Source: a virus
Length of the DNA stretch: 21,644 nt
Virus record (IMG/VR): IMGVR_UViG_3300047548_001046
Span: 1 to 21,644 of that record
Reading direction: 5' to 3' (one strand)
Shown here: positions 1 to 21,644 of the stretch, piece after piece
Layout: the number at the start of each line of letters is the position of its first letter
Position numbering within the stretch: the first letter of the stretch is position 1
Notes under the pieces: generated by a model
Databases searched by the model: none
What the model was told of the DNA's origin: nothing
Seen by the model: the letters and a program-made list of their open reading frames with translations, nothing else
Program-made: the position numbers and the translations under genes

Positions 1-534
1 GCAACAACACCTGCTTCCAAAGGTGGTTTAGGTATTCCGGAAGTGACTTACAAAGGAACCTTCACTGGTGAGCAGGCATTATTAGCTATTAGTAGTAGTT
101 TAGGTGTTACTGCGTTTGAGTCGGCATCCCAAGATTCAACGCTACAAAAAAACCTAAACATGCTATTCGCAGGCTACGTATCTGCTAGCGGAATTGTAGA
201 ACCGCCGGCTGGTGAAATTTCTACTGAATACAATGCTATTATAGCAAAAAGATCTCTCTTTAAAAAAGATATAACAGAATATGTATTTGCAGCTAGTGGA
301 AGTTTAAGTATAGTACAACTAACAGCAAAGTGGGGTGTTGATACCATAACGGCGGAGATTCAGACGAACAAAAAAATACCTAATCCTAAGTGGACGGTTA
401 GCTTGTATGCCGTAAGCGCAGCACCGCAGATTGGAACAAACTTCAACGGAACGCCAGTTGCAGGTAGAGGGATAGATGGCGCCGCTTACACTATAAAGTA
501 TGCACGCATAAGTGACGAACAGACTAAGATATGA
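1..534 (+). CDS. Phage protein of unknown function, 3' part only
   Basis: The reading frame is open from the first base of the window, so this is the C-terminal 177 residues of a longer protein. A GTG at 43 could be read as a start, but the frame stays open upstream of it and nothing there looks like a promoter or ribosome binding site, so a truncated gene is the better reading. The visible part has no cysteine, no transmembrane stretch and no motif I recognise. It is rich in Ser, Ala, Thr and Ile in an alternating pattern that suggests beta structure. Its stop codon overlaps the ATG of the next gene (ATGA at 531-534), which implies co-transcription and translational coupling with the Ig-domain structural protein. 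A structural role is inferred from this context only. Confidence 0.75.
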   Translation, partial: ATTPASKGGLGIPEVTYKGTFTGEQALLAISSSLGVTAFESASQDSTLQKNLNMLFAGYVSASGIVEPPAGEISTEYNAIIAKRSLFKKDITEYVFAASGSLSIVQLTAKWGVDTITAEIQTNKKIPNPKWTVSLYAVSAAPQIGTNFNGTPVAGRGIDGAAYTIKYARISDEQTKI

Positions 535-3323
535 AGAAATTAACAGCAAAACTGACACCACCTTTAGAGGATCAGGCTTTGAGATCAGGAGATTTCTTCT
601 TAATGCCCGAAGCACCCGTTCCACCAGCTATTGTATCGGATTTAGACAAGAACATAAGACAAAAGACATGGATTGGAGAGTATGTAAATGGAGAGCCAAG
701 TTACCTCGAAATACAACCAATCTTTGGTAGATTTACAGTACTAGCAGGTACTGCTGTTGAGATGTTTATTATAGCTGAAGATCCATCCTTAGTTGATCCA
801 AGCTTGCGAGGAGACGATAGTCGATTAAAGTATGTGTGGAAGCGCAACGGAGCATCTATCGTTGAAGTTAACTCTCTTAACAATGGAAAGGGTATTTCTG
901 GTTTAGCACTATCCTCTCGAGAGGTAGACGAGAACGTTAGTGGACTTTATACTTGTGAAGTCTCAAATACTTACGGAACTACGATTTCAACTGAAATTGA
1001 ACTCGTTGTTGTTGATCCTAGAAATCATCCAAAGCTATTTAAAAACCTTCTTATGAATGGTTCCTCTACTGTGGATTGGACCGTTAGTTCGGATGTGATA
1101 ACTAGAACCTTCATAGAGAGTGTACCAGCAACAAATCACTTTGGCAGCTTACCACACTTTTGCTACTATGATTATGGCTTCTCCAAAGTACAACCAGCAA
1201 CGCCAGACGACTTTCGATTTTCTCAAGCAGGACATAGCGGCTTGCTATTTAACGTATTAAATACGTGGAAAAGTAAAGATCCAAACCTATACGATATTAG
1301 TCCGAATGCAAGACAAACACACAATTCCTCATTGCCAGATTGGATGGCATGGATGAATTCTAGCTATCCGGCTCAAATTGTTCCAAACGAGGATATAGAA
1401 ACTTTCAAGTTCGCAGGATTCTTTCCAGGACTAAAGTGGATGGATTTGTATAACAGAAATCTTAACGGAAGATTGATTGGTTTATCAAATGAGGTTGATA
1501 ACCAAATATTAACATACATAACTCGAGACAAGATAAAATTCAAAAAAGATGGTGGAAGTGAGAGTTCAACAGCATCTCAGATAATAGACTTGCAGGATAT
1601 AGATGCTGTGGTTGATGGTAAGGTCTTAGGTTTAAACAAACTACAAGCTCAGTTTTTTGCATATGTAGGAGCTGGTATCACGGGGTACCAAATCAAAGCA
1701 ACTACTGAGGATGGTGAGCAGTTGTTTAATTGGTTTGTCAACAGTAGTTTTGATGTTTACGATCGAATAAGATCAAGCAAAGATAATAGAGTAGAGTTGG
1801 TTAAAGATAGTGTGATTGAGATTATTCCACTAATGCAAGACTCTACAACAATATCCCTCATTATGAGGAACGCAAATGGAGTAGAGATCGAAAGACAGGA
1901 TATTCCAGGTCCAGACGTTTATGATGTATTTGCAATTAAAGAGAAATCATACTTACCTATAACTTGGTATCCAATTTTTGATTTGTTCATAACAAATAAC
2001 AACACTGTTAAAATATTCGGTCAAAAATACTCAGACACTACGGCTCTTCTCAACCTAATGTCTCCAAACCCAGCAATACCTAGCCAAAGGTTAGTGGGAT
2101 ATAATTACAACTTAAAGTTGAATAATTTCAGTGGTGGAGCCAATAAAAGAAGAAAGTTCAAAAACGTATTTAATGATTACGGATATTCTGACGACTTTGG
2201 TGAGCAGATTATAGGAGGGAATGGTTCGTGGAACATAGATAACTGGTTTAATAATCTAAACGCTCCAGCAAGATTAATACTAATACCACTGCAGCCAGAA
2301 GATCTGGGTGGAGAGAGTATTGAAAACATATCAGCAGAGGAGTTTAAGCAGCTTCAGAGGAGAAAGGCATATAGAAATATGAAGCGTCAACTTGAAGAGA
2401 TTGACGGAGAAATAAAAGTAACGTTGAGCAGTACTCCTATATACCAAAACATAAGGGTAGATAATGATATCGCTAGAATTAACACGGTAGATGTGACTGG
2501 TATGGATAGAAATGCAGCCTTCTTTATAAAGAAAGTTCCTTTTAAAGAAGGAGGTCGATACTATCCAAAACAAACACCACCTAACTACGATCCAGCCAAT
2601 CCACAAAACTCGGTAATTAGCGATAAAAGAACTTTTAAGGCTTTGGAGGATTTTGGAGCTGCAGCAATGTTTGGAGTAGGTGCTACGGTTGACGTTCCTA
2701 AAAACACAAGATCAGTTGAAGTATTAATCACATTCACACACACTTCAGATGCGTTTGAAGATTCTCAACCAGAGTCACGAGGTTGGACAAGACCGGAGAT
2801 TTATAGAAATGACTTTACAACTGCAGTTGCAGACTCTAATAACAAGCCAGTTCTAGAATATGGATATCCACGATGTGGTGTTGCATTGGCAAAGTTTCAA
2901 CTAATGCCTGCCGGAGCAGGAGCAAGCGACAACTACGTAAGTTACTTCCTCCCACCAGCAGAATACACGGTATTGGGCTTAAGAAAGAGAAGGTTATTTG
3001 AGGATGTAAATGACACATCACAGCCGGGTACATTCACTTACGATTATCAGATGCCTAAATCAATTCCTCAAATGCCAGGAATTGACATATTCAGCCTCAA
3101 CAAGGCTACTGAGGATTATTCTCGAGGAGTACGTATAAAAGCAAGAGAGCTAGATCCACCACCATCTGTAGAAGAGTTGAATATATTTGAAAGAGATGTA
3201 GTAGGTGTGGAGGATGCTAGTGGAGATCGAATTGAAAACATCGAGAATGTGGTCACTCTTGATGAGCAGCTTCAAGATGCAGAGATTCCGGAAGATACAC
3301 CACCATCAGAAACTGAGTCATAA
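531..3323 (+). CDS. Large virion structural protein with an immunoglobulin-like (I-set) domain
   Basis: 930 residues. At about residues 62-162 there is a recognisable Ig-like domain: the core tryptophan of strand C (YVWKRNG, W103) and the strand F signature VSGLYTCEVSNTYG (Y140, C142). The first disulfide cysteine expected near residue 80 is absent (VEMFII), so the usual Ig disulfide cannot form. The remaining roughly 750 residues match no family I can name. They are rich in Asn, Asp, Tyr and Phe and end in an acidic, Pro/Glu-rich tail (residues about 895-930). Ig-like domains are well known add-ons on capsid and tail proteins of tailed phages, where they are thought to aid surface attachment. 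The gene starts inside the preceding stop codon and is followed by a late-promoter-like octamer. Virion component, probably tail or baseplate; the exact role is not determinable here. Confidence 0.8.
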   Translation: MKKLTAKLTPPLEDQALRSGDFFLMPEAPVPPAIVSDLDKNIRQKTWIGEYVNGEPSYLEIQPIFGRFTVLAGTAVEMFIIAEDPSLVDPSLRGDDSRLKYVWKRNGASIVEVNSLNNGKGISGLALSSREVDENVSGLYTCEVSNTYGTTISTEIELVVVDPRNHPKLFKNLLMNGSSTVDWTVSSDVITRTFIESVPATNHFGSLPHFCYYDYGFSKVQPATPDDFRFSQAGHSGLLFNVLNTWKSKDPNLYDISPNARQTHNSSLPDWMAWMNSSYPAQIVPNEDIETFKFAGFFPGLKWMDLYNRNLNGRLIGLSNEVDNQILTYITRDKIKFKKDGGSESSTASQIIDLQDIDAVVDGKVLGLNKLQAQFFAYVGAGITGYQIKATTEDGEQLFNWFVNSSFDVYDRIRSSKDNRVELVKDSVIEIIPLMQDSTTISLIMRNANGVEIERQDIPGPDVYDVFAIKEKSYLPITWYPIFDLFITNNNTVKIFGQKYSDTTALLNLMSPNPAIPSQRLVGYNYNLKLNNFSGGANKRRKFKNVFNDYGYSDDFGEQIIGGNGSWNIDNWFNNLNAPARLILIPLQPEDLGGESIENISAEEFKQLQRRKAYRNMKRQLEEIDGEIKVTLSSTPIYQNIRVDNDIARINTVDVTGMDRNAAFFIKKVPFKEGGRYYPKQTPPNYDPANPQNSVISDKRTFKALEDFGAAAMFGVGATVDVPKNTRSVEVLITFTHTSDAFEDSQPESRGWTRPEIYRNDFTTAVADSNNKPVLEYGYPRCGVALAKFQLMPAGAGASDNYVSYFLPPAEYTVLGLRKRRLFEDVNDTSQPGTFTYDYQMPKSIPQMPGIDIFSLNKATEDYSRGVRIKARELDPPPSVEELNIFERDVVGVEDASGDRIENIENVVTLDEQLQDAEIPEDTPPSETES

Positions 3324-9896: not shown

Positions 9897-11639
9897 ATGG
9901 CAGGAATTTTCAAAAGCTTAGATAAGTCCGACGTACGCATAACTCCGTTTAGAACGTATAAGTTATGGGCCGACTCTATTCAAGATAATTTAAGTGGCTC
10001 AGTATACACGGTGTATCAGGCAGACTACAATCCAACACCTGACCATCTCGAAGCCGATCCGCTTGGAGATAATTTTGATCAAGGAAACTTTCACTACGAT
10101 GCGGATGAACCCCAAACGGCCAATGGAAAGTATCAAAGAATCGTACACAGATCAGTTGAACACCTTTATTACAGAGACTTCTACGTAAACAATAAGGCAT
10201 CTTTTGGTAGCGGGAATATAAACTCACAGTACAGGTATTTAGAAGATCGAGCTCAAGTGATAAGCATGCCTCAGTCAAAGTTTGGTGAATCGATATTACC
10301 AGGCTCTGTACGCATGCTTGTAAGTTGGTCAATGGTTAGTGGTAGTACCTCGACCCATATAAGTGGAACTTGGGTAGTCGAAGATGATCTGTATGGAAAT
10401 CTTATCATTTCTGGAGGACAGTACCTATCACCTTATGGCGAGTATGTGGGTGGAGCCTTTACTAATTACACATCTTCTATAACTAAGCAGACAATAGGTG
10501 AGTGGCCATTAGATGATATATACAAGTACGTTGGAGCTGGAGCAGTGAACATATCTTCTAGCTATAACCGTGGCGGTTGGAATGTTCAAACCAACTACTA
10601 CAACGTATCTTCGGAATTTGTAACAGCATCCAGCTACACAACTGGATCTGAAAAAGGGTTTTTAGGAACAGCTCTGTTCTTTACGTCATCTCTTAGCTCT
10701 AGTGTAACTATAAACTATGATCCAGTTCCAGACTACAAAGATCAATACAACTTCCAGAACAAAAACTTCACAATTGCAATGATGGTGATGCCAACTCAGG
10801 CATCTACGAACGTATCGGGAGCAGTGCTTTTAGCTAAACATGGATACTCAGAGCAGCTGCGAATTGATGAGAATGGTAATGTATATTCGCAGCCAGTGAA
10901 TAATCAGTTTCCATATAGACTCGCATACACAACAGAATCTAAAGTTGCCTTTGAGAAAGGAGGCGGTGCAGATGGCATTTTTACCGTAACAAGCAGCTTT
11001 GCGTTAGATAACGATCAACTCTACTACATTATAGCCGAAAAGTCAGGATCAACTATGACTTTAGAGGTCTATGGATCGGCTTCATACTCATCAACATCAG
11101 GAGTGTGCCCTTTCTTAGATAGGAATTGTATCAATCTAGCTAACGTATACATTGGTAACTCTTATAAGCAGGATCAAGGCTTTAATGGATTGATCGATAA
11201 TATTAAGATTTATAGAGAGATTCTAAGCTTAGATGAAAAGAAAGTACTCAGACATACGCAGGGAGTTGGAACAACCCAAATAGGCAATATATTCTACAAT
11301 CACGGAATGATGACGTTAACATCGATTCCTTCCAGATATTGCACAATACACGATATAGATACGAGAAGTACTCACACAATTTGGGAAACGGAAGTATCCT
11401 GCACAGTAGGTCCAGGAGAGTTCACTAGGAGTAATAATCCAACTTTACAGGTTTACGATCCAGATCAAAACCAATACGTATTCAAGTCATTCGTTACTGG
11501 TTCAGATTTTGTACCATTTGTAACTACCATAGGACTGTATGACGATTACCATAGGTTGGTTGCAATTGGAAAGTTGAGTACGCCAATCCAAATGCCAAAT
11601 AACGTAGATACAACCTTCATTGTAAGGTTTGATAGATAG
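9897..11639 (+). CDS. Phage structural protein with LamG (concanavalin A-like) domain
   Basis: 580 residues. The N-terminal module (about 1-165) and C-terminal module (about 460-580) are homologous to the 356-residue protein just upstream. Between them lies a LamG-type jelly roll (about 200-452), recognised by FLGTALFF at its start, NFTIAMMVMP in the middle, and the closing signature GLIDNIKIYREILSLDE, typical of LamG/concanavalin A-like domains. The C-terminal module carries GNIFYNHG, SNNPTLQ, VTTIGLYD and TPIQMPNN and ends in FIVRFDR. LamG-type domains bind glycans or proteins, so a host-surface recognition or virion decoration role is plausible. The gene has its own promoter-like octamer 4 bases before ATG. 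The T7-type endonuclease gene follows 4 bases after its stop. Confidence 0.8.
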   Translation: MAGIFKSLDKSDVRITPFRTYKLWADSIQDNLSGSVYTVYQADYNPTPDHLEADPLGDNFDQGNFHYDADEPQTANGKYQRIVHRSVEHLYYRDFYVNNKASFGSGNINSQYRYLEDRAQVISMPQSKFGESILPGSVRMLVSWSMVSGSTSTHISGTWVVEDDLYGNLIISGGQYLSPYGEYVGGAFTNYTSSITKQTIGEWPLDDIYKYVGAGAVNISSSYNRGGWNVQTNYYNVSSEFVTASSYTTGSEKGFLGTALFFTSSLSSSVTINYDPVPDYKDQYNFQNKNFTIAMMVMPTQASTNVSGAVLLAKHGYSEQLRIDENGNVYSQPVNNQFPYRLAYTTESKVAFEKGGGADGIFTVTSSFALDNDQLYYIIAEKSGSTMTLEVYGSASYSSTSGVCPFLDRNCINLANVYIGNSYKQDQGFNGLIDNIKIYREILSLDEKKVLRHTQGVGTTQIGNIFYNHGMMTLTSIPSRYCTIHDIDTRSTHTIWETEVSCTVGPGEFTRSNNPTLQVYDPDQNQYVFKSFVTGSDFVPFVTTIGLYDDYHRLVAIGKLSTPIQMPNNVDTTFIVRFDR

Positions 11640-11643
11640 TAGG

Positions 11644-12042
11644 ATGAGAAAAAGGTTTACAAAAAAGCAGGCAGCTGCAAAGCATGGTTTTAGAAGTGGT
11701 CTTGAGGAAGTTTTAGATCAATCATTAAGATCGAGAGGCATTGATGGTCAGTATGAACAGCATAAGGTTTCTTATACCAAACCAGCCACACAACACATAT
11801 ATACTCCTGATTTTAGACTACCTAATGGGATCTTTATTGAAACCAAGGGTCGGTTTGTTTTAGCAGACAGACAGAAGCACTTATTGATAAAGCAGCAGAA
11901 CCCGGAATTAGACATCAGGTTTGTGTTTCAGAACTCAAAAAACAAAATAAGAAAGGGCTCAAAGACAACATACGCAGATTGGTGTAACAAGCATGGGTTT
12001 CTTTATGCAGATAAGGATATTCCAGTAGAATGGTTTGCTTAG
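11644..12042 (+). CDS. T7 gp3-type endonuclease I (Holliday junction resolvase)
   Basis: 132 residues from ATG 11644; T7 endonuclease I has 149. The enzyme cleaves four-way and branched DNA, resolving recombination and replication intermediates before packaging. The fold is recognised from FRSGLE, YTPDFRLPNG, IETKG, KHLLI, NPELDIRFVF and KHGFLYADKDIPVEW, all in the order of the T7 protein. The T7 catalytic set E20, D55, E65, K67 corresponds here to E21, D56, E66, K68, so the active site is intact. An in-frame TTG at 11629 would add five residues and overlap the previous gene; ATG is preferred because it follows AGG, sits 4 bases after the preceding stop, and gives the family's spacing to the first catalytic Glu. 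It opens the replication/recombination cassette and may be co-transcribed with the structural gene before it. Confidence 0.93.
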   Translation: MRKRFTKKQAAAKHGFRSGLEEVLDQSLRSRGIDGQYEQHKVSYTKPATQHIYTPDFRLPNGIFIETKGRFVLADRQKHLLIKQQNPELDIRFVFQNSKNKIRKGSKTTYADWCNKHGFLYADKDIPVEWFA

Positions 12043-12069: not shown

Positions 12070-12996
12070 ATGACAGTAAGTGTATTGCAATCAAAAGGCC
12101 TATTGGATGGCTTTCTTGGACCTAGCACGCCTCATAGAAATAATGAGCATAGTTACTCGTGTCCGTTTTGTAATCACTACAAAAAGAAGCTGCAAGTAAA
12201 CCTTGTAACGCAGAAGTGGCACTGTTGGGTATGTGATGCTCGAGGTCAAACTATCACATCACTACTACGCAAAAGTAACGCACCTTATGAGTTGGTTAAG
12301 AAGGCTAAGGAGCTTTATGGAGACAACTCTACATCATCCAACATTCCTATTAACACAAGGGAGTTGGTAGGTCTTCCGGAAGGATACAGACCTCTCTATA
12401 TAAACCAAAACACACCAGATTACCGCAATGCATTGCATTATGCGATGAAAGAAAGAAACCTCACAGCGGTAGACATTTTAAGATATCAAGTAGGTTATTG
12501 TGAAGAAGGACCGTATGCAGGAATGCTGATTATTCCAAGCTATAATCAAGACAACCAACTTAATTACTACGTTGGAAGAAGTTATTATAAAGGATCCACG
12601 ATTGCACACAAGAATCCTCCAGTCTCAAAGGACATTGTAGGTTTTGAAAACCAAATCAACTGGAAAGAGCCTATAGTAATAGTAGAGGGTGCTTTTGATG
12701 CGATTGCAGTAAAAAGAAACGCAATTCCGTTGTTTGGTAAGAAAATTTTGACTACTTTAAGGAGTCGTATACTCACAGAGAGAGTTAAGCAAATATACTT
12801 AGCACTCGATGCTGATGCATTTAACGATAGCGTAAAGGAGATTGAGTACTTTATGAACAATGGCATAGAAGTTTGTGTAGTTAACCTTCCGGGTAAGGAT
12901 CCAAGTGAGATTGGGTATGCCGGGATGGTTGACGCTATTTCTAAGGCAAAGAAGGTCGACTTTTTCGATCTTATCAAATACAAGATGTTACTATGA
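12070..12996 (+). CDS. DNA primase, zinc-ribbon plus Toprim type
   Basis: 308 residues. Primases make the short RNA primers for lagging-strand synthesis. The N-terminus has a zinc ribbon with CPFC (C31, C34) and CWVC (C52, C55), preceded by a helical segment. The Toprim domain shows the catalytic glutamate in IVIVEGAFDAI (E186), the DxD in YLALDADAF (D227, D229) and the third motif GKDPSE (D257, E260). This is the DnaG/T7 gp4 primase architecture. No helicase (RecA-type) domain follows, so the helicase must be a separate gene outside the window, as in T4 where primase (gp61) and helicase (gp41) are separate. The protein is a little shorter than T4 gp61. The gene ends in an ATGA overlap with the Mre11-Rad50 fusion, implying a shared transcript and coupled translation. 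Confidence 0.92.
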   Translation: MTVSVLQSKGLLDGFLGPSTPHRNNEHSYSCPFCNHYKKKLQVNLVTQKWHCWVCDARGQTITSLLRKSNAPYELVKKAKELYGDNSTSSNIPINTRELVGLPEGYRPLYINQNTPDYRNALHYAMKERNLTAVDILRYQVGYCEEGPYAGMLIIPSYNQDNQLNYYVGRSYYKGSTIAHKNPPVSKDIVGFENQINWKEPIVIVEGAFDAIAVKRNAIPLFGKKILTTLRSRILTERVKQIYLALDADAFNDSVKEIEYFMNNGIEVCVVNLPGKDPSEIGYAGMVDAISKAKKVDFFDLIKYKMLL

Positions 12997-15900
12997 TAAA
13001 CAAAGTAAAAAGCTCACTAAAGTCGGTAGACTACATCTTCCACATTGCTGATATACACTTACGCAACTGGAAAAGGCATAAGGAGTTTAAGGAGGTTTTT
13101 GACGATGTGTTTGCTCGAATAGATCAACTACCACCTAACTCGATAGTGACCGTGGGAGGAGATATTGTGCACGCTAAAACCGACATGAGTCCAGAGCTTA
13201 TAGAGATGGTTTCCTACCTCTTCAACGGACTAGCTGACCGAGTGCCGACCATAGTAATCACTGGAAATCACGATGCGAACCTAAACAATCAGCATAGATT
13301 AGATGCGCTTACACCTATCGTTAAGAGTATTAACCATCCCAACCTTTCTTATCTCAGAAACTCAGGATTGTACGAGATAGGTGACATAGCTTTGAGTGTA
13401 TACTCTTTGCTTGATGAACCAGATAAATACATTACTTACGATAAAATTAAGCAACCAAACAAGTACAAGAAGCTGGTAGCCCTGTACCATGGTACTATCG
13501 CAAACAGTAGTGTCGATAGCGGTTTAGTCCTTTCGCATGGATTGGATTGGAGTCTATTCGCTGGCTTTGATGTTGTCCCATTAGGAGACATACATAAGCG
13601 ACAAATACTAAGCAAAAGCAACCCTGCAATATTCTATCCTGGATCTCTAGTGCAACAGAACTTTGGAGAAGCTTTTGAGGGTCATGGCTATGCGTTGATA
13701 GATTTAACAAAGCCAGAAGTTGAGTATGAATTTCACGATATTCCAAACAGCTACGGCTACTATACGCTGGATATTGACAACGGAGTGTTGCCAGACAACC
13801 TACCACTAACCTCTAAGACAAATTTACGAGTTCGTACAATAAACACAGACCCAGCGCAACTGAAGCGCGTTCTTGCTACGATTAGAAAAGAGTACAGGAT
13901 TCGTGATGTGATTGTTCAAAAGCTTGATAAAAATAGCATTAACGGTAACTCAAATATACTTGACGATACTCTCAACCAAGGAGACGTCAGAAGTGTAGCT
14001 TACCAGAACCAACTACTAACAGAATACCTCTCAGCACAGAACATCGATGACGAGACTTTGGCTAAGGTTTTAGAGATCAACACTAAACTAAACCAGGAAA
14101 TCAACTTACCAGAAACAGCCCGTAATGTTGTCTGGAAGCCTAAGCGATTTGAGTTCAGCAATATGTTCTCTTATGGGGAAGGTAATGTTATTGACTTTGG
14201 AACGAAGCAAGGAACTTGTGGGCTTTTCGCGCCAAACCATGCTGGAAAGTCTGCTGTATTAGACGCTCTATGCTTCTGCTTATTTGATCAATCGTTTCGT
14301 GCAAGTAAGGCAGAACAAGTCCTTAACCGCAAGAAGGATTCGTTTGAGTGTAAGTTCAACTTTGAGCTTGGTGGATTAGATTTTTTTGTAGAGAAAAAGG
14401 CATATCGCTACAGAAGTGGTGCTCTCAAAGGAAAGCTGAGAGTAGATGTAGATTTCTGGATGATCAACTCAGAAGGAGAGAGGGTTTCGTTAAACGGAGA
14501 GCAAAGACGAGATACAAATTACAGCATTCAATCCTATGTTGGAACGTTTGATGACTTCATTTTAACAGCACTATCGTTGCAGGGTAACAATTCTAACTTC
14601 ATAGACAAAACGCAAGGAGAAAGGAAGGACCTACTAGCAAACTTCTTAGATGTAACCATATTCGACTCTCTCTGTGATTTAGCAAATAAGAACAACAGAA
14701 AGACTGCAATTCTAATAGAAGAGTATCAAAAGCAAGACTTTGAAACCAAACTTGGAGATGCAGAGAGATCGAAGGAGCTTTACGAAAAGAAGCAAGAGGA
14801 TGTGCTTGCAGAGTTAGAACAAGCTCAGGAGGAGATGCAGGATATAAACGACAAACTACTTGAATATAATAAGCAATTGCAAGATTGTAAGGGAGATGGT
14901 TTGGATATAGACATCCTTAACGATCAATTAGAGGATTGCAAGACTCGCATCGAGGATCTCAAAAAAGACAAAGAAGAACGTAGACTTAGAGAAGCGGAAT
15001 TAAATGGCCAACATTCTCAGATTTGTACACAAATAGAGAGTGCATCAAAAACATTCAACCAAGACCTCTACAACGACTACAGATCGGAAATTGCTGCAAA
15101 GCTCATGCTTGATAAGGAGCTTGACACTATGAAGCTTACAATCAAAAATAAACTCGAAAAGCTAGCAAAACTCAACGAACATGAGTATGATCCTAACTGT
15201 CAGTATTGTGTATCGAATGTGTTTGTACAAGACGCAATGAAGACAAAAGAGGAGTTGGAGCAGGATAAAAAGACGGTAGCAGACTTCTTACAAAAGAGAA
15301 GCGTTGTTGTTGATTTTATCGAGAAAAATGCCTTCATCGAAGAGCAGGCAGACGAACTCAACCAACTAATAAAGAAACGCGATCAACTACACTTAGATAG
15401 AACCACAGCTTCTGTAGGATTGGAGCGAGTGAAGTCCATGCTTATTCAAGCAGAAAACGAGAAAAAGACAATTCAAGGCAACATAAAACTATACCACGAC
15501 AACGTAACAATCCTAGAGAGCAACAAACGGATACAGGATGAGATTAGTAAGCTAAACAAGGAAAAGAATGTGAAAGCGGTCACACTCTCGAAGCTTAACA
15601 ATACAGCAAAAGACTACCATGCAAAGGTACAAGTTGCAGAGCAAACTATCTCCGAGTGCTTGAGAACCATAGAGCACATGCATCAGTTGGTAGATCAGCA
15701 ACTTGCGTATGACCTTTACACAAAGGCAATGCACAAGGATGGTATTCCGTATACGCTAATCAGCAAAGCAGTACCATACATCCAGCAATATACTAACAAC
15801 ATTCTAAATCAAATTATTGACTTCACTGTTGAGCTTGAGACAGATGGAAAGAACATAAACGCGTACATCTGCTATGATGATGAAAAATGGCCACTAGAGC

Positions 15901-16175
15901 TGAGTTCTGGAATGGAGAGGTTCCTTTCATCTATAGCTATTCGAATTGCATTGATAAAGATTACAAACCTACCAAAACCAGACTTCATTGCTATTGACGA
16001 AGGTCTTGGGGTATTAGATAGTACAAACCTAAACTCAATGCATACCCTATTTACTCACATGAAAGACGTATTCCGATTCAGCTTAATCATCTCACACATA
16101 GACGTGGTACGAGACATGGTCGACACCATACTATCAATAGATAAGAAGGATGATATGAGCTACATCTCCTGCTAG
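12993..16175 (+). CDS. Mre11-Rad50 (SbcD-SbcC / T4 gp47-gp46) fused in one polypeptide
   Basis: 1060 residues in one uninterrupted frame. Residues 14-250 are a calcineurin-like nuclease with all Mre11 metal motifs: HIADIH (D20, H22), GGDIVH (D57), GNHD (N92-D94), LYHGTI (H166) and GDIHKRQ (D199, H201). Residues about 250-380 link to a Rad50 ATPase: Walker A APNHAGKS (413-420), Q-loop LSLQGN (near 530), a coiled coil broken by the zinc hook CQYC (C736, C739), ABC signature LSSGME (970-975), Walker B FIAIDEG (D1002, E1003) and an H-loop histidine (SHID, H1035). In T4, gp47 and gp46 are separate proteins of roughly 340 and 560 residues that process DNA ends for recombination-dependent replication. 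Here both halves keep every key residue, so an active one-chain complex is likely. The start overlaps the primase stop (ATGA). Confidence 0.95.
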   Translation: MINKVKSSLKSVDYIFHIADIHLRNWKRHKEFKEVFDDVFARIDQLPPNSIVTVGGDIVHAKTDMSPELIEMVSYLFNGLADRVPTIVITGNHDANLNNQHRLDALTPIVKSINHPNLSYLRNSGLYEIGDIALSVYSLLDEPDKYITYDKIKQPNKYKKLVALYHGTIANSSVDSGLVLSHGLDWSLFAGFDVVPLGDIHKRQILSKSNPAIFYPGSLVQQNFGEAFEGHGYALIDLTKPEVEYEFHDIPNSYGYYTLDIDNGVLPDNLPLTSKTNLRVRTINTDPAQLKRVLATIRKEYRIRDVIVQKLDKNSINGNSNILDDTLNQGDVRSVAYQNQLLTEYLSAQNIDDETLAKVLEINTKLNQEINLPETARNVVWKPKRFEFSNMFSYGEGNVIDFGTKQGTCGLFAPNHAGKSAVLDALCFCLFDQSFRASKAEQVLNRKKDSFECKFNFELGGLDFFVEKKAYRYRSGALKGKLRVDVDFWMINSEGERVSLNGEQRRDTNYSIQSYVGTFDDFILTALSLQGNNSNFIDKTQGERKDLLANFLDVTIFDSLCDLANKNNRKTAILIEEYQKQDFETKLGDAERSKELYEKKQEDVLAELEQAQEEMQDINDKLLEYNKQLQDCKGDGLDIDILNDQLEDCKTRIEDLKKDKEERRLREAELNGQHSQICTQIESASKTFNQDLYNDYRSEIAAKLMLDKELDTMKLTIKNKLEKLAKLNEHEYDPNCQYCVSNVFVQDAMKTKEELEQDKKTVADFLQKRSVVVDFIEKNAFIEEQADELNQLIKKRDQLHLDRTTASVGLERVKSMLIQAENEKKTIQGNIKLYHDNVTILESNKRIQDEISKLNKEKNVKAVTLSKLNNTAKDYHAKVQVAEQTISECLRTIEHMHQLVDQQLAYDLYTKAMHKDGIPYTLISKAVPYIQQYTNNILNQIIDFTVELETDGKNINAYICYDDEKWPLELSSGMERFLSSIAIRIALIKITNLPKPDFIAIDEGLGVLDSTNLNSMHTLFTHMKDVFRFSLIISHIDVVRDMVDTILSIDKKDDMSYISC

Positions 16176-19827: not shown

Positions 19828-20349
19828 ATGATAAACAGCAGCACAATACGAAATTGCCAAGTACAGTTCCCAATCACTCAGGGAATGGTTAATGGCAACA
19901 CTCTAGGAAAGATGTATATAAAAAACCTATACCAATCCTGGAATGGAGAGAATATTGAACAGATAAAGCAAAGACATGAGCAAAACCCATACAGTCTACG
20001 CATAGGCTTACCATCTACAGATCAGCAGCTGAAGAATGATGCAGTATACTTCATTTTACACTACTTAGCATACAATCCGGTAACCAAAGACATTGAGCGA
20101 AGAGAGATTATACCTCTAAGAAACACCGAAAAGGTGTATATCGGTCACTCTTTGGATGAAAAGGTGTATAAAGACTATAGGCTCTTTGTTGAAGGTAATG
20201 CCGTTGTAGATGACATATACCTACGCAAGTCCTTGGGACAGCAATCTGTAGGTAGACTTCTTACAACAATCGTAGATCGAATGGAAAAACTACAAATGGA
20301 GGTAGTCGAATTAAAACGTCAACTTCAATCGAAGCATATTTATAAGTAA
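19828..20349 (+). CDS. Short fibre-like phage protein with C-terminal coiled coil
   Basis: 173 residues beginning 1 base after the preceding stop. Residues about 95-135 contain KVYIGHSLDEKVYKDYRL followed by FVEGNAVVDDIYLRKS. This resembles the IGxxxxxxYxLxVxGnaxvxxxLyl strand-turn motif found before the trimerisation or chaperone regions of phage tail fibres. Residues about 138-170 (LLTTIVDRMEKLQMEVVEL) form a heptad-like amphipathic helix, likely a short trimeric coiled coil. The protein is too small for a full fibre, so it may be a fibre tip, a connector or a baseplate-associated trimer. The late-promoter-like octamer of the next gene lies within its last codons, and its TAA overlaps the next ATG by one base (20349). 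Confidence 0.65.
   Translation: MINSSTIRNCQVQFPITQGMVNGNTLGKMYIKNLYQSWNGENIEQIKQRHEQNPYSLRIGLPSTDQQLKNDAVYFILHYLAYNPVTKDIERREIIPLRNTEKVYIGHSLDEKVYKDYRLFVEGNAVVDDIYLRKSLGQQSVGRLLTTIVDRMEKLQMEVVELKRQLQSKHIYK
20337..20344 (+). promoter_or_regulatory. Late-promoter-like octamer TATTTATA inside the preceding gene
   Basis: TATTTATA lies within the last codons of the 173-residue protein and ends 4 bases before the ATG at 20349. The exact spacing is kept although the octamer has to be compatible with coding for the C-terminus (HIYK), which supports selection on the site rather than chance. Confidence 0.65.
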
Positions 20350-21644
20350 TGAAGAATACATTAGCAAATTACTTGGTTGAGCAAGTTCTCAAAGAAATGG
20401 AGGAAGGTATTGTGGTAATGCTTCCTGGAGGGTTTAAGCCACCACATGCTGGTCATTTAGAGTTAGCAAAGCGATATGCAGCACAACCAAACGTCTCAGA
20501 AGTTAAGATTTTAATTGGTCCAAAGGAGCGAGATGGTATTACCATGCAGCAATCGATGGACATCTGGAGACTATTGTTAAAGGGTGCGGCTGGTGTTAGG
20601 GTAGAAAAGGCACCAAATGACAATCCAATGAGAGCTGCCTATGAATTTATTGAACAAGCAGCTCCCGGTACTTATGCATTAGGATCAAGCTCAAAGGGTA
20701 AAGACTACGATCGAGTAAAGATGTTCGTAGCAGGTCATGCAGACGCTAAAGGAACCACACCAGCTGGAAAGTATAACAGACCTAATGTAAATGTAGTAGA
20801 GCTTCCAATGGACGTTTCACCGCTTACATATTCAGGTAGAGACGATGATAAGAATGGCCAAGGTATTAGCGCTAGTGTTTTAAGAGCAGATTTAGCAGCA
20901 GGAAACTACAATAATTTCAAAACCAACTATCCAAACATACCAGACTCAACAACTCGTGCAATCTTTGATATACTAACAAATAAGTCTCAACTAAGCGAAG
21001 CTGTTGTAGGAGAGTATGTTCAAAAAATTAAAACTCGGTTTAAAGAACTTATAAAAGCTATTAAGGATGAGGGTATTGAGACAAAAAAAGCCTTCTCCCT
21101 TTTGATACAAGCGGCAGCTGGAAAAAAAGAACTAACTAAACAAGAAAAAGAGCAGATCGGAAATCAGATGAAAGAAGCACTAAAGGCTTCTGGATTAGTA
21201 GCCGCTTCTGTCTTACCAGGAGGTACTATCTACTTCATTCTTATAAGATTGTTAAAGCTCGAAGACACACTCCTTCCTCAAAGATTTCTGAGCAAAAATG
21301 CTGCATCGGCAGGAACACTTGCTATGATGGAAGAGCATCTATATCAGTGGAAGCCTGCTAAGGGTAAGATGAATTTGAACGACAAAAGTCGAATAACTAT
21401 AAACGAGAATGCAGCAGTGATGGCAGCAATGGCAGCTACAACGCACGCTGCGTTAGCAAGTAGAAGAGGAGGATATAGTAGTAATGATGATTGGAACTTC
21501 AACATATTAGGTTGGTTTAGAGAGTTTTTGAAAGACAGAAAGCTTCAGAAGATAGCTGATAGACTGGTTCAAGATCCAGAAATCCAAAAACTAGTAAGAG
21601 ATCACACATACTTTGATAAGAATAATAAAGTAATTGCTACCTCA
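20349..21644 (+). CDS. HxGH nucleotidyltransferase fused to a LETM1-like segment, 3' end outside window
   Basis: 432 residues are visible with no stop before the window ends. Residues about 20-200 form a cytidylyltransferase/NMN adenylyltransferase-type Rossmann domain: PGGFKPPHAGH with the HxGH motif (H33-H36), the LIGPKERDG loop (55-63), and the C-terminal motif ISASVLR (173-179), equivalent to the ISSTxIR motif of this superfamily. Residues about 225-315 resemble the LETM1-like family (KKELTKQEKEQIGNQMKEAL, then a hydrophobic stretch with VLPGGTIYFILIRLL and LLPQRF). A third part (about 352-432) contains an Ala-rich helix and a charged helical segment (LKDRKLQKIADRLVQDPE). The substrate cannot be read from the sequence; NMN, CTP or pantetheine-type chemistry are all possible. 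The gene has its own late-promoter-like octamer, suggesting late expression, unusual for a purely metabolic enzyme. Confidence 0.8.
   Translation, partial: MKNTLANYLVEQVLKEMEEGIVVMLPGGFKPPHAGHLELAKRYAAQPNVSEVKILIGPKERDGITMQQSMDIWRLLLKGAAGVRVEKAPNDNPMRAAYEFIEQAAPGTYALGSSSKGKDYDRVKMFVAGHADAKGTTPAGKYNRPNVNVVELPMDVSPLTYSGRDDDKNGQGISASVLRADLAAGNYNNFKTNYPNIPDSTTRAIFDILTNKSQLSEAVVGEYVQKIKTRFKELIKAIKDEGIETKKAFSLLIQAAAGKKELTKQEKEQIGNQMKEALKASGLVAASVLPGGTIYFILIRLLKLEDTLLPQRFLSKNAASAGTLAMMEEHLYQWKPAKGKMNLNDKSRITINENAAVMAAMAATTHAALASRRGGYSSNDDWNFNILGWFREFLKDRKLQKIADRLVQDPEIQKLVRDHTYFDKNNKVIATS

Follow-up and report, generated by a model that had tools for sequence, protein, structure and literature searches.

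A single-chain Mre11-Rad50 gene in an uncultured aquatic tailed phage: a widespread fusion with a predicted docking element and a short tether

Phage T4 encodes its Mre11-type nuclease and its Rad50-type ATPase as the separate proteins gp47 and gp46; what, then, is to be made of a viral gene that appears to encode both as one polypeptide, is the joint genuine, and does it alter the enzyme? The question is raised by a gene at positions 12993..16175 of the IMG/VR virus record IMGVR_UViG_3300047548_001046, the whole 21,644 bases of which were analysed (hereafter, the window) and whose source is an uncultured aquatic tailed phage. The gene, its parts, and the two conserved neighbours described below all lie on the plus strand. 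It is a single intact frame with an ATG start, and its 1060 residues comprise a complete Mre11/SbcD-type nuclease followed by a complete Rad50/SbcC-type ATPase. The preliminary description of this DNA had reported such a frame with full sets of nuclease and ATPase motifs, and the open frame, the family matches, and every residue that it quoted bear this out. We regard it as highly probable that this single-chain Mre11-Rad50 nuclease does the job of the two T4 proteins and belongs, as a phage representative, to the fused family whose first described member was Mimivirus R555.

Both halves are recognised by comparison with known families. Metallophos (PF00149) falls on residues 15-123 (35.2 bits) and AAA_23 (PF13476) on residues 389-630 (52.4 bits), each exceeding its curated Pfam cut-off; the PHROGs family phrog_77 (SbcC) spans residues 288-1058 (E 3.5e-39), and matches to NCBIfam and to PDB sequences assign the first half to SbcD/Mre11 and the second to SbcC/Rad50. 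Conservation was read from an alignment of the window protein with 81 relatives (n = 82), which are 36-78% identical to it. The Mre11-type nuclease core occupies residues 12-253 (13026..13751) and contains the metal-binding motifs DxH, GDxxH, and GNHD as well as His166, all conserved, with the GHxH slot reading GDIH. Residues D20, D57, H60, N92, H93, D94, H166, D199, and H201 are invariant (82/82), and H22 is kept in 80 of the 82 sequences. The GDIH variant (G-D199-I-H201) is likewise present throughout the alignment, where most split Mre11 proteins have GHxH (His206 and His208 in Pyrococcus furiosus); D199 occupies the position of His206, one canonical metal-binding histidine thus being replaced by aspartate. 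Mimivirus R555 has been reported with an aspartate at the same position (PMC3175470).

The Rad50 half opens with an N-terminal ATPase lobe (residues 381-555; 14133..14657) bearing the Walker A motif (APNHAGKS, 413-420) and the Q-loop (Q530), continues into an antiparallel coiled coil (residues 556-912; 14658..15728) with a zinc hook, CQYC, at residues 736-739 (15198-15209), and closes with a C-terminal lobe (residues 913-1060; 15729..16172) that holds the signature LSSGME (970-975), Walker B (DE, 1002-1003), the D-loop (D1009), and the H-loop (H1035). All 82 sequences share G418-K419-S420, Q530, the hook cysteines C736 and C739, S972-G973-M974-E975, D1002, and E1003, and 81 keep H1035. Every element by which a Rad50/SbcC protein is recognised is therefore present: Walker A, Q-loop, signature, Walker B, D-loop, H-loop, and a CxxC hook on a coiled coil.

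Two AlphaFold2 models were made, each of a single chain. The second, built on the 82-sequence alignment, is the better (mean predicted local distance difference test score (pLDDT) 82.8; predicted template modelling score (pTM) 0.48) and shows, in order, a phosphoesterase core, a capping domain, a disordered loop, a helix-loop-helix, a short tether, and a Rad50 head beginning at 380-381, whose coiled coil extends over some 350 residues around the CQYC hook (helices from 555-580 to 780-913). Its nuclease and capping portion aligns with the solved structure of Staphylococcus aureus SbcD over residues 12-310 (Z 25.1) and its Rad50 portion with the Escherichia coli SbcC head over residues 381-1060 (Z 28.3). 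In the first, weaker model, SbcD chains from E. coli SbcCD head complexes align over residues 13-371, through the helix-loop-helix. The best fold match in BFVD is a Tupanvirus protein of 1379 residues (23% identity over 1324 columns; E 1.8e-50), followed by other long giant-virus proteins of similar length and then by proteins of Tenacibaculum phages and of Listeria phage LMTA-57.

The stretch between the two halves was previously described as a linker of about 130 residues replacing the region that docks Mre11 onto Rad50. That interpretation was rejected on the basis of profile alignment and the AlphaFold2 model. Residues 254-312 (13752..13928) form the Mre11 capping domain, assigned by hhalign with split phage Mre11, by the secondary structure of the model (strands at 256-262 and 277-283, a helix at 287-301, and a strand at 306-310), and by the aligned SbcD structure; residues 14-349 of the fusion align profile-to-profile with five stand-alone phage Mre11 proteins, capping domain included (hhalign, 99.6%). 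A flexible loop follows (residues 313-334; 13929..13994), within which 313-326 is the sole segment of the model with a pLDDT under 50, and which has the lowest conservation (0.35) and the most gaps of the Mre11 half. Residues 335-369 (13995..14099) form the predicted Rad50-docking helix-loop-helix, with helices at 335-347 and 353-369 (pLDDT 86-91), invariant Q338 and N363 (82/82), and an E. coli SbcD alignment reaching 367-371. Only then comes the covalent tether, residues 370-380 (14100..14132), which has a pLDDT of about 69 and ends where residue 1 of Rad50 aligns (379-381). Each of the 82 aligned sequences has the same 14-residue spacing between positions 367 and 381, whereas the loop before the helix-loop-helix varies in length.

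The two halves are thus separated by a capping and helix-loop-helix region and a short linker, as in the fused SbcDC family. Since the profile alignment, the model, and the SbcD alignment all point to a retained docking part, the fusion would have added only the tether of some 10 residues. That fusion should limit how the complex opens and closes, as the preliminary description proposed, does not follow: the loop of about 20 residues (313-334) is kept, and the tether spans sites that lie about 28 Angstrom apart in the two-chain enzyme of Thermotoga maritima (PMC3175470). Its statement on stoichiometry holds in that the fusion fixes a 1:1 ratio, but this equals the ratio in the 2:2 two-chain enzyme.

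Directly upstream, the start of the fusion gene overlaps by 4 nt the stop of a gene for a DnaG-type primase-like protein with a zinc ribbon and a Toprim domain (12070..12996; phrog_47, E 9e-34, with a dnaG match), which is preceded by a gene for a T7 gp3-type endonuclease I of the Holliday-junction resolvase family (11629..12042; PF05367, 194.5 bits). Endonuclease I and primase adjoin the fusion in most close loci. Twenty close-family records were searched for AAA_23, and in 18 of them, among these the complete 190-kb genome of Microcystis phage Mel-JY01, nothing but the fusion scores over the cut-off; the remaining two (G012 and G017) have zero AAA_23 matches, phrog_77 finding the fusion in G012. 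It is also the only strong phrog_77 match in long related records, the extra matches being marginal. A second, split Mre11-Rad50 pair was not indicated: neither Mel-JY01 nor any long close-family contig has a further AAA_23 match that exceeds the cut-off. Small separate metallophosphoesterases occur in some records. Among 10 long records, 8 carry a RecA-family gene.

Might the single frame be an error of assembly or sequencing, in which an indel, through loss of a stop or a change of frame, ran adjacent gp47-like and gp46-like genes together? Such an event looks possible elsewhere: in Listeria phage LMTA-57 an annotated one-frame exonuclease gene (L040:2917-5946; 3030 nt) is 100.0% identical to a two-gene stretch of LMSP-25 (3031 nt) and differs by one base in length from that and the A511-type version, and therefore points either to an error in sequencing or to a fusion of very recent date. 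The window gene has a different standing. Relatives in IMG/VR numbered 36 in a first scan (listed segments at 58-88% identity), were encoded by 541 stretches in a profile scan, and came to at least 588 in a scan that took in more distant members; these counts contain fragments of related viruses that overlap one another and should not be read as independent events. Both halves were found at 104 loci, and in 100 of them the reading frame runs uninterrupted from Mre11 into Rad50; once 17 duplicate contigs and the window itself are set aside, 82 distinct records remain. The test of the joint began at the best Mre11 match, and for this reason two of the 82 passed although their frames are broken inside the Mre11 part (L020) or downstream of the joint (L089). 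The four loci that failed are one with a frame break (L083), an interrupted copy in a 484-kb phage (L038), the split control phiNIT1 (L108), and L039, which showed one stop in the crude joint test yet has a single open frame of 1202 residues. Mel-JY01, a cultured and sequenced phage whose record names its host, a cyanobacterium, has a single frame of 1066 residues. With independent records open through the joint, a spacer of constant length, and this named phage, the fusion is not an artefact, and we give that explanation next to no weight.

The two large-phage copies just mentioned deserve description in their own right. In LR756508.1 (484 kb; L038:4950-9175) an insert of roughly 1 kb interrupts the fusion homologue directly behind the nuclease motif LGDIHKRQ. 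It contains an open reading frame (ORF) of 305 residues with a TnsA-like endonuclease domain (PF08722) and resembles a homing-endonuclease insertion; Rfam found no intron in it. Near this copy lies an ORF of 405 residues (L038:1304-2521) that, judged from its sequence, has an IS605/TnpB-type look. LR756501.1 (735 kb; L039:3013-6618) encodes the fused protein of 1202 residues, about 25% identical; this phage falls outside the close group and possesses additional genes of the AAA_23 and metallophosphoesterase kinds. A tree was built for each half, with long branches and some forks left open; both trees separate the T4- and SPO1-type proteins from the close fusions, Mel-JY01, and the copies in the 484-kb and 735-kb phages. 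One scan of genome contigs returned no confirmed cellular relative; as only two short peptide patterns were used, it is scarcely informative on fusions in bacteria, which have been reported (PMC3175470).

How would such a protein work? Two fused chains may dimerise through their Mre11 cores, Rad50 heads, and zinc hooks, with each helix-loop-helix docking on a Rad50 coiled-coil base, in the simplest case that of the chain to which it belongs. The heads would close on binding ATP and block the nuclease, and hydrolysis together with DNA-end binding would permit end processing, feeding RecA/UvsX-type recombination-dependent replication. The fusion itself most likely arose by loss of a stop between adjacent operon genes, its main effect probably being guaranteed co-expression and a 1:1 ratio. 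Protein family and genomic context together make the most likely role that of a T4 gp46/47 counterpart, namely, ATP-gated DNA-end processing for recombination and replication. Several points weigh against this picture: the evidence for the enzyme consists of sequences and single-chain models; D199 stands in for a canonical metal-binding histidine, and metal preference or activity could differ for that reason; the modelling covered one chain, with a pTM of 0.48, which leaves the placement of the domains, the dimer, and cis or trans docking as predictions; and among the matches listed for the better model, no SbcD chain extends to the helix-loop-helix.

It could also be argued that the tether makes a mechanically different enzyme, keeping each Mre11 with one particular Rad50 (fixed cis docking) and limiting the open-closed cycle, and that this form evolved in a large aquatic phage lineage as its sole Mre11-Rad50 machine. 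The unvarying 367-381 spacing among relatives as little as 36% identical to the window protein suggests that tether length is under constraint, but with the capping domain, flexible loop, and helix-loop-helix all retained and the joined sites about 28 Angstrom apart in the T. maritima complex, little extra constraint is expected, and we consider such an enzyme unlikely. Just as the T4 proteins are annotated as also needed for host-DNA degradation, so the fusion might serve that end, or counter host SbcCD/RecBCD, instead of recombination-dependent replication. The conserved neighbours are a primase and endonuclease I, though, and long related records, most of which carry a RecA-family gene, contain no other strong Rad50-like gene; a different role of this kind seems a shade less likely still, and it and a recombination role are not mutually exclusive. 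The two-chain T4 pair in single-chain form is thus the reading that we prefer.

One-chain fusions were taken at the outset to be new, with the proviso that a literature survey might show them to be already common and described; the survey exists. Yoshida, Claverie and Ogata (Virol J 2011, 8:427; PMC3175470) recognised an Mre11/Rad50 fusion in Mimivirus R555 and listed another twelve, drawn from bacteria, plasmids, eukaryotes, and Bacillus phage 0305phi8-36. Most of the listed fusions retain the capping and helix-loop-helix regions, while that of 0305phi8-36 is without the capping and docking part (PMC3175470). R555 homologues were found to be abundant in aquatic viral metagenomes, from which it was inferred that aquatic phages carry many fusions, and metagenomic scaffolds with such homologues bear phage primases (SPO1, Twort, and A511 types) and T7 gp3-type endonucleases (PMC3175470); the window carries this same gene set. 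Whole fusions were confirmed at that time in just a few long marine sequences and in one isolated phage, 0305phi8-36 (PMC3175470). Because that survey had described the fusions, including their inferred abundance in aquatic phages, novelty cannot be claimed for them: the window protein is another member, widespread and apparently complete, of a known type. The present analysis contributes full-length sequences from many phage contigs that confirm the fusion, a tether whose length is conserved, and evidence for retention of the docking element. Nothing established is overturned; the single chain appears as the usual form in a large aquatic phage group, which confirms the 2011 inference from short metagenomic scaffolds. 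A compact natural fusion, with a sequenced carrier of known host in Mel-JY01, could suit structural work on Mre11-Rad50, the halves of which are otherwise co-purified.

Elsewhere in the window, an open-ended ORF (20349-21644) has weak N-terminal similarity to nucleotidylyltransferases (coaD/cyt_tran-type, below cut-offs), and two ORFs (9897-11639 and 531-3323) encode large probable structural proteins, one with a LamG/concanavalin-like domain (PF13385, 42.6 bits) and one with weak Ig-like matches.

Set beside known systems, the window protein resembles Mimivirus R555 in having Mre11 then Rad50 in one chain and an aspartate at the P. furiosus His206 position, but R555 is longer (1351 residues); the likeness is drawn from the published description, and kinship to R555-type proteins from the fold matches to other giant viruses. 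The Mel-JY01 protein (WWT39521.1, 'AAA domain containing protein') is 38% identical over its full length and has a primase-like gene upstream, but a short ORF separates primase and fusion and a GIY-YIG gene occupies the upstream endonuclease slot; the phage carries T4-like capsid and tail genes. The split pairs of T4 (gp47/gp46) and of SPO1-type phages (Herelleviridae) belong to the same enzyme families, and their genes, neighbours or almost neighbours, follow the same order, but they form two chains, and the nucleases of T4, S-CAM7, and Herelleviridae have GHxH rather than GDIH. E. coli SbcCD and T. maritima Mre11-Rad50 share the fold of both halves, the position of the docking helix-loop-helix, and the zinc hook (about 15-20% identity in structural alignments), and differ in being two chains, E. 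coli SbcC being much longer (1048 residues) on account of its coiled coil.

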